Part shown: piece by piece, positions 32,343-60,285 of the stretch
Layout of the letters: each line of letters starts with the position of its first letter
Numbering within the stretch: position 1 is the stretch's first letter
Assembly: GCF_014697025.1 (NCBI RefSeq)
Contig: NZ_JACJRC010000014.1
Span: forward strand, 62,001-126,000
Reading direction: 5' to 3'
From: Alkalinema sp. FACHB-956
Lineage (GTDB): Bacteria; Cyanobacteriota; Cyanobacteriia; Leptolyngbyales; Leptolyngbyaceae
Length of the DNA: 64,000 nt
Program-made: the position numbers and the translations under genes
The notes under the pieces: model-generated
Database searches by the model: none
The model's input: the letters and a program-made list of their open reading frames with translations, nothing else
What the model was told of the DNA's origin: nothing

Positions 32343-32678
32343 TTACTTCGCCCAACCATTTCCAGCCTGGGCCAAGACATAAGCAGCCACGTTTTCAATT
32401 TGTTCGGGTTGAAGCTTACCGCCAAAAGCAGGCATTGCGTTCTTGCCGTTCGTCACTTGTTTGATGATTGCTTCTGCGGAGGCCATCCCGTATTGGTCGA
32501 GGTCAGCCTGTTGCAGCGTTTTGGTGGGGTTGACGGCGTTGCGTCCACCCGCATGGCAAGCAGCACAGTTGGCTGCAAACACCTTAGCACCTGCCGCAGT
32601 ATCAGCAGCATAGGCGGGCAGGGCAAAGGAAATGGTGGCAACGATCGCGATCAAGCCCAGAAAAAGCTTTCTTAACAT
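32343..32678 (-). CDS. petJ: Cytochrome c6
   Basis: Cytochrome c6 carries electrons from cytochrome b6f to photosystem I in the thylakoid lumen and can replace plastocyanin under copper shortage. The 111-aa precursor has a signal peptide ending LPAYAAD. Its haem motif is CAACH, and its axial Met is in [12 protein letters not shown]. The conserved [13 protein letters not shown]-terminus is present. Two operators of the PetR type lie 73-116 bp upstream of the ATG. Confidence 0.96.
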
Positions 32679-32748
32679 TTTGATACCAGTGTTCTACGCT
32701 CAAGGATTACCGTCCCCCATTCTGTTGAGAAGGGATTTCCTGGGTCAA

Positions 32749-32803
32749 AAGACATATTGTCAAAGATTGCAAGCTTGCAATAAGACATATTGTCAAAGAT
32801 TGC
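32749..32803. promoter_or_regulatory. Two PetR (BlaI-type) operators upstream of petJ
   Basis: GACATATTGTC occurs at 32751-32761 and 32784-32794, inside an exact 22-bp direct repeat spaced 33 bp. Each matches GAC-N5-GTC, the motif I recall for PetR, the copper-dependent plastocyanin/c6 switch repressor. A palindrome ATTGCAAGCTTGCAAT lies between them. TTGACA hexamers on the minus strand overlap the operators, placing them over possible -35 elements. Confidence 0.65.
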
Positions 32804-32895
32804 GCTACGTAAAGCCAGTTGCGATCGGTGGAGTGCCCAGGGAGTGAGATAATCCAGCGTGCACCTGCTTAGGAGAATGCTGAGGAGAATACGCT

Positions 32896-34128
32896 ATGAA
32901 TCAACCTGCTGCCCCCGCTACGGCAACCCTCGCCCCCTGGGGCACCCCGTTACAACCAGGGGCACAACGCCTATTGCTGCTCGGCTCAGGGGAATTGGGG
33001 CGGGAAGTGGCGATCGAAGCCATGCGCCTGGGCCTAGAAGTGATTGCAGTCGATTCCTATGCCAATGCCCCGGCCATGCAGTTTGCCCACCGTTCCCATG
33101 TGATCAGTATGTTGGATGGGGAAGCCCTGCGATCGGTGATTGAAGCGGAGCAACCCAGCTTCATCGTGCCGGAAGTGGAAGCGATCGCCACGCCGACGTT
33201 GATTGAATTGGAAAAGCAGGGCTGGCGAGTCATTCCGACGGCCAATGCGACCTTTCTCACGATGAACCGGGAAGGGATCCGGCGGTTGGCGGCGGAAACC
33301 TTAGGGTTGAAAACCTCGCCCTATCGCTTTGCTGATACGGAAGCGGAATACCAAGCGGCGATCGCGGAGATTGGCTTGCCCTGCGTGGTAAAGCCGGTGA
33401 TGAGTTCCTCCGGCAAAGGCCAAAGTACCGTGAAAACAGAGGCGGATATTTTGCCTGCTTGGGACTATGCCCACGCTAAGGGCCGGACGCAGAACGATCG
33501 GGTGATTATCGAAGGCTTCGTCAATTTCCACACTGAGATTACATTGCTGACCGTGCGGGCGATCGATGGCACCCATTTCTGTCCGCCGATCGGCCATGTC
33601 CAGATCAGCGGCGATTATCGCGAATCTTGGCAACCTTGCCCGCTGTCAGAAGCTACCCTCGCCAAATGTCAGGCGATCGCGGCCACAATCACGGAAGCCT
33701 TGGGCGGATGGGGCCTCTTTGGGGTGGAATTGTTCATCGAAGGGGATCCCGCTGGGGAACAAACGGTTTACTTCAGCGAGGTCAGCCCCCGCCCCCACGA
33801 TACGGGCATGGTGACGATGATTAGCCAAAACATGTCCGAGTTTGAGTTACATGTGCGGGCGATCGCGGGTTTGCCGATCGGCGAGATTGACCTGATTAAA
33901 CCCGGTGCCTCGGCGGTGATTCTGGGCACGGAACCGACGGAGAATCCGCAATTTACGGGCGTAGCAGACGCTTTACAGGTTCCCACGAGTAAGTTACGGC
34001 TCTTTGGTAAACCCAAAAGCTATGCCAACCGTCGTATGGGGGTAGCACTGGCCCTAGGATCCACGATCGAAGAAGCCCGCGATCGGGCTAAGGCTTGTGC
34101 GGCACAGGTGCAGGTGGTCAAGGGGTAG
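32896..34128 (+). CDS. purT: Phosphoribosylglycinamide formyltransferase 2 (formate-dependent)
   Basis: PurT makes formyl-GAR from GAR, formate and ATP in purine synthesis, an alternative to folate-dependent PurN. The protein is an ATP-grasp enzyme of 410 aa, the normal length. Recognisable stretches are [58 protein letters not shown] and [15 protein letters not shown]. It starts at ATG 32896 after GAGGAGAA-like sequence. The stop codon lies inside a 17-bp tandem repeat. Confidence 0.95.
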
Positions 34129-60160: not shown

Positions 60161-60203
60161 GTTTGTAGGCCAATAGCGGTTGTATGCTAACAGCCCAGAC
60201 TGT

Positions 60204-60285
60204 TAGTCAAAGACCACTAGTCAAAGACCACTAGTCAAAGACCACTAGTCAAAGACCACTAGTCAAAGACCACTAGTCAAAGGCC
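60204..60285. repeat. 14-bp tandem repeat, five perfect copies plus partial
   Basis: TAGTCAAAGACCAC is repeated five times exactly (60204-60273), then a partial unit TAGTCAAAGGCC. It ends 9 bp before the ndk stop codon. Perfect identity suggests recent expansion. Confidence 0.97.

Follow-up and report, generated by a model that had tools for sequence, protein, structure and literature searches.

Background

The promoter region of petJ, the gene for cytochrome c6, contains two copies of the dyad GAC-N5-GTC within an exact duplication, which raises the questions of which regulator acts there, whether it turns petJ off or on, and what the second copy contributes. The window, by which we mean the whole stretch of 64,000 nucleotides analyzed here (G000:C14:62001-126000), belongs to a 6.16-Mb genome with cyanobacterial photosynthesis genes. 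The initial annotation took the two dyads for operators of PetR, seen as the BlaI-type repressor of the copper-controlled switch between plastocyanin and cytochrome c6. Like it, we presume GAC-N5-GTC to be the motif of PetR; the two literature matches listed for GACN5GTC are, judged by title, not cyanobacterial papers. In Synechocystis sp. PCC 6803, PetR and PetP govern the exchange of plastocyanin for cytochrome c6, reportedly the subject of a study by Garcia-Canas et al. (2021). In Synechocystis 6803 PetR represses petE and activates petJ, and PetP degrades PetR in the presence of copper (PMC7896320); three further papers likewise give petE repression, petJ activation and loss of PetR through PetP when copper is there (PMC13421787, PMC12292863, PMC10141476).

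Anatomy of the petJ promoter

The petJ gene (32343..32678, minus strand) was recognized by its match to NF045930 (154.8 bits; cut-off 135) and by Pfam cytochrome c matches, and the dyads are situated between it and the divergent neighbor purT (32896..34128, plus strand; TIGR01142, 586.2 bits). On the minus strand a proximal 22-bp copy at 32749-32770 is identical to a distal one at 32782-32803, with a start-to-start distance of 33 bp, and the two copies contain the word GACATATTGTC at 32751-32761 and 32784-32794, which places the dyads 73-83 and 106-116 bp upstream of where petJ starts (32678). These coordinates bear out the initial description of an exact 22-bp duplication with two dyads 73-116 bp before the cytochrome c6 start, and the TTGACA hexamers that had been noticed to overlap both sites are indeed present on the minus strand (32763-32758 and 32796-32791). 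As the -35 element of petJ these hexamers were set aside in favor of TTGACC-18-CAGAAT, which is the sole promoter-like site in 32600-32900 (0.3 expected in shuffled sequences). Its predicted -35 hexamer TTGACC (32743..32748, minus strand) comes from a consensus scan and from column conservation in relatives; the predicted -10 hexamer CAGAAT (32719..32724, minus strand), across a spacer of 18, comes from the scan and from nAnAAT-like columns at the equal distance in 155 composite boxes of the type defined here. The proximal dyad abuts the predicted -35 element in the configuration GAC-N5-GTC-TT-TTGAC, and together with the TTTTGAC directly behind it forms a composite box (32761-32744, minus strand) whose place and form are the same in relatives. 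This composite form is limited to the proximal copy, the distal dyad being bare.

With up to two mismatches allowed, GACATATTGTC occurs 11 times in the window against 14.0 expected, which is no excess. The exact word has two copies in the entire 6.16-Mb genome, both upstream of petJ, and pairs of GAC-N5-GTC with a gap of 21-23 bp are found at one other place in it. Exactly between the dyads is a perfect 16-bp palindrome, ATTGCAAGCTTGCAAT (32766-32781), of which an imperfect relative was found in L041/L157 only. Elsewhere in the window, a 14-bp tandem array at 60198-60282 (5.6 copies of the unit TAGTCAAAGACCAC) yields five instances of GACCACTAGTC and one of GACTGTTAGTC, which are GAC-N5-GTC by letter and a simple repeat by look.

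The regulator

A single BlaI-type gene, petR (PF03965, 104.5 bits; C14:135122-135535), is present in the genome, a homologue whose absence would have counted against the PetR reading. It is on the same contig as petJ, about 40 kb from it and 9 kb past the end of the window. Directly behind petR is a petP-like gene, the name of which rests largely on its place because the M56 match is below the cut-off (23.0 bits; cut-off 31) and the M48 match just above it (21.7 bits; cut-off 20.3). Like the CopY/BlaI/MecI proteins, the query PetR matches PF03965, and it shows distant similarity to MecI and BlaI proteins whose structures have been solved; unlike CopY, it reaches 49.2 bits where the CopY/TcrY cut-off is 121.95. 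The conservation of PetR over 30 loci offers no check on how the site is read. The arrangement resembles the PetR/PetP system of Synechocystis in the order of petR and a petP-like gene and in the presence of sites at both petJ and petE, but differs from it in that petR does not adjoin petJ and in that petJ has a second dyad from an exact 22-bp duplication.

Conservation of the petJ dyad and origin of the doubling

Among 80 petJ loci of named records, kept from 143 confirmed ones, GAC-N5-GTC is present within 300 bp upstream of the gene in 46 (spacers of 1-4 and 6-9 give 0-7), lies 60-125 bp upstream in 42, and takes the exact composite form GAC-N5-GTC-N-TTTGAC in 41; in 34 loci, two of which include little upstream sequence, the exact dyad is missing within 300 bp. 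Summarized as a profile, the 155 composite boxes give AAGTTT-GACAGNNTGTC-TTTTGAC, and at 18 bp behind TTGACN there follows a weak nAnAAT-like hexamer; the boxes were selected by the GAC, GTC and TTNGAC letters, and therefore only the remaining columns are informative.

The five nearest petJ promoters (L157-L161; protein identity 66-75%) have a single dyad at the place of the proximal one in the query. For L157 the dyad position, 84 bp, was obtained from L041, which is apparently from the same genome; L160 and L042 are likewise apparently from one genome. The dyad was seen in 16 of 30 family petJ-like loci examined (part of a longer list; no ATG was found for 8), and two dyads in the query only. 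Further afield, two dyads precede petJ in 7 of the 80 named loci, at spacings of 17, 18, 24, 49, 74, 138 and 138 bp, and in two further genomes petJ is preceded by a pair of full composite boxes at a distance of 73 bp. As far as sampled, the 33-bp two-dyad arrangement is thus private to the lineage of the query while doubling as such recurs, since the sampled relatives are single and other lineages are double with other spacings. The exact identity of the repeats suggests a young duplication; selection could also preserve such exactness. The earlier proposal that the doubling is recent agrees with there being one site in each of the five nearest promoters, which gives it no date. Its companion claim, that the repeat process seen elsewhere in the window was responsible, was not established: the 54 rows of tandem repeats obtained for the window do not include the petJ pair. 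The short tandem arrays that these rows describe are frequent and have units mostly of 12-20 bp, some rows representing the same array.

What the second copy does is a separate matter. That the proximal dyad alone works, the distal copy being a neutral by-product of a chance duplication, would fit the lack of TTTTGAC behind the distal dyad, its absence from the five nearest petJ promoters and the abundance of short tandem repeats in the window. Against this stand the 22-bp identity of the copies, though recency could account for it, and the recurrence of paired petJ dyads in the seven loci and two genomes mentioned above, and we regard such neutrality as a possible but somewhat doubtful explanation. 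It is compatible with our main reading of the proximal site; for the distal dyad we prefer a role as an additional PetR site.

Position of the dyads at petE and the sign of regulation

The petE gene is on contig C1, in the order psbV, psbV2, petE and a c6-like gene. The same motif was found before it in two sites, GACGACCTGTC and GACAACCCGTC, which have 15 bp between them; the second stops 5 bp short of a TATGAT hexamer. Across 28 petE loci (30 minus two repeats, L235 and L237), GAC-N5-GTC occurs within 300 bp of the gene in 26, with other spacers giving 0-3; the two dyad-less loci, L248 and L253, are short and their starts probably misplaced, and no ATG was found for L256, L260 and L262. In the query and in the near relatives G040, G015, G041, G010 and G007 the last petE dyad ends exactly 5 bp before TATRAT/TATACT. 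This 5-bp spacing to TATRAT is missing in the other 22 of the 28 loci, e.g. those of Fischerella and Nostoc (no -10 element assigned), and four of the 22 (L247, L249, L254 and L251; an Anabaena, two Fischerella and a Nostoc record) have the word GACATATTGTC itself before petE. The composite box is found in the opposite orientation at L256, L260 and L262, in whose genomes petE is close to petJ (petE was found in the petJ loci L045, L080 and L105).

Two other genes were considered as targets and rejected. The c6-like gene on contig C27 (L122; G000:C27:25451-25765), which at 136.6 bits is over the PetJ cut-off in the genome search, has one GAC-N5-GTC, at 1291-1301, on its downstream side; the c6-like gene behind petE (L037:875-1393) is below the PetJ cut-off and shows a one-mismatch word only. 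GAC-N5-GTC was not found upstream of either.

With petR present in the genome, petE preceded by two dyads and the motif enriched before petJ and petE elsewhere, sequence comparison lends good support to the attribution of the sites to PetR and indicates that the petJ pair is a real, non-random pair of PetR-type sites. The comparison across genomes further suggests that PetR switches petJ on, not off. At petE of the query and its five near relatives the predicted -10 element would place the dyad in the core promoter, while at petJ it is upstream of the predicted -35 element, and the opposite effects reported for Synechocystis fit these two positions. The alternative embodied in the initial annotation is a simple repressor operator, with PetR on both copies blocking petJ. 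BlaI/CopY proteins are best known as repressors, and the dyads are within about 40-75 bp of the predicted start, as such an operator might be. We nevertheless consider repression at petJ improbable, and the term operator probably wrong there: the papers report activation of petJ by PetR, the proximal dyad lies just upstream of the likely -35 element and off the predicted core promoter with a spacing that is fixed across loci, and the petE dyads of the query, at a gene for which repression is reported, are within the predicted core promoter. The reported signs and the geometry of dyad and -35 element therefore lead us to call the petJ dyad an activator site, in which respect it differs from the sites of CopY, BlaI and MecI.

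Co-occurrence of the composite box with petR

Across 388 genomes of the class, the composite box occurs in 259 and a PetR match in 251 (two of them weak). The box is present in 238 of the 251 petR genomes versus 21 of the 137 without petR (Fisher p 9e-61, which is too small on account of genome relatedness, though the contrast is nevertheless large). A reversed control pattern also differs between the groups (170/251 versus 67/137), so that genome size explains part of the contrast. Exceptions run both ways, with 13 petR genomes devoid of an exact composite and 21 petR-less genomes that have one; in total sites, there are 542 composite versus 367 reversed in petR genomes and 31 versus 106 in the rest. 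An assignment of the dyads to purT, or to some regulator besides PetR, is highly improbable, for although they lie between petJ and purT and have the 16-bp palindrome between them, the box faces petJ, stays with petJ where purT is missing (purT was set aside as a target because a search of 109 petJ loci gave no match to it) and follows petR in its occurrence.

We return to PetR as the regulator of petJ, and consider it likely that the proximal dyad is a PetR activator site at the -35 element, that the core dyads of petE are repressive and that the distal copy at petJ provides a further PetR site. Counting against this are the 34 petJ loci devoid of an exact dyad, the two-way exceptions in co-occurrence, the 22 petE loci with a different spacing and the low M56 score of the petP-like protein. 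The proposal builds on the anatomy of the locus, the regulator gene, conservation and co-occurrence, and on the signs and the removal of PetR by PetP given in the Synechocystis papers; from these we infer the binding of PetR in this organism, the activation geometry and the role of the distal copy. At low copper PetP would leave PetR intact, and a PetR dimer on GAC-N5-GTC, directly against the -35 element of a weak petJ promoter, would aid RNA polymerase in starting at petJ. When copper is present PetP would remove PetR, with petJ falling silent and petE being freed. The two petE dyads lie within the predicted core promoter and would therefore mediate repression by the same PetR, such that the sign would depend on where the site lies. 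At petJ the distal dyad, some three helical turns upstream, would have arisen in this lineage by the 22-bp duplication and would probably make occupancy stronger or sharper. Where a dyad stands relative to the -35 box thereby offers a testable answer on the sign of PetR action, and the doubled petJ site a natural variant for testing how site number tunes the switch.

A possible wider low-copper regulon

The genes behind 113 of the 573 composite sites were examined (the two query sites included, with family f32 making up much of the sample), taking the longest frame starting within 330 bp and grouping by BLAST linkage. Cytochrome c6 accounts for 39 sites, which are 37 genes because two genes have two boxes each. 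The other groups comprise TonB-dependent-receptor-like proteins (17), a small GLTT-repeat protein (13), DsbD_2/ferric-reductase-like proteins (11), MbnP/MbnH (5), a His-rich protein (4), DsrE-like proteins (2) and the all3515 family (2), in addition to 13 singletons, ExbB and TonB among them, and 7 sites without a frame. Representatives of the groups were checked and gave MbnP (TIGR04052, 323 bits, over 140), an MbnH-like fragment and DsbD_2 (158 bits), with further matches to GLTT, DsrE, PepSY_TM and TonB. The fit to copper is incomplete: the all3515 family goes by a name that marks it as Zur-repressed (zinc), the His-rich proteins match no family, and among the singletons some seem to be unconnected.

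In the query genome the only other exact composite is GACAGGCTGTCTTTTGAC at C12:78283-78300 (L263:4284-4301), against 0 matches of the reversed control. One-mismatch composites number 17, the two exact ones included, versus 36 reversed, and there is therefore no excess of them. The C12 box ends 67 bp before the chosen ATG of a TonB-dependent receptor (a longer in-frame start exists) with a Plug match of 73.8 bits, from which exbB and exbD are divergent. Compared with 13 other boxed receptors, whose frames are truncated where the fetched sequence ends, this receptor shows 48-52% identity over 303-422 residues; it is 28% identical to one more, and 58% identical over 632 residues to a boxed receptor in G076. 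Among proteins of solved structure, those closest to it in sequence are the colicin I receptor and BtuB. G076 has a 10-kb locus in the order tonB, box-exbB-exbD, petP-petR, box-petJ and box-receptor, whose three boxes have no counterpart in 200 shuffles, and six f32 genomes have the petJ box at a distance of 1.7-3.2 kb from the receptor box.

The Synechocystis PetR regulon, according to one report, consists of petE, petJ, slr0601 and slr0602 (PMC12382314), from which the query differs by the further box before a TonB-dependent receptor. Two papers describe IacT of Anabaena PCC 7120 as a TonB-dependent receptor for iron and copper (PMC8141849, PMC10878165), and the former has it rising in low copper, as a PetR-activated gene would; the likeness lies in this reported behavior. 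PetR may also switch on copper uptake. Among the literature matches listed (titles and abstract starts, most subscription papers lying outside) none tied PetR to TonB-dependent receptors or MbnP. We lean towards the broader view that PetR is a general low-copper activator acting through GAC-N5-GTC-TTTTGAC, which would drive, besides petJ, copper acquisition and sparing (TonB-dependent receptor, ExbBD, TonB, MbnP/MbnH, DsbD/ferric-reductase-like protein, possibly cytochrome bd); through the core dyads of petE it would turn plastocyanin off, and its second target for activation here would be the receptor on C12 near 78.4 kb. The box before genes of metal-uptake type, together with its clustering with petRP in some genomes, would link metal uptake across the outer membrane with the photosynthetic switch in part of the cyanobacteria, and it is in this box and in the proposed rule that position sets the sign (activation at petJ, repression at petE) that the wider value of the locus would lie.

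A further arrangement is found in G154, where a boxed mbnP is divergent from petR-petP and followed by a MauG/MbnH-type gene. The same genome (L345, G154:C168:16500-27500) has cytochrome bd genes with a boxed gene of DsbD_2/ferric-reductase-like type upstream of them, an arrangement in which copper-sparing respiration under PetR is possible.
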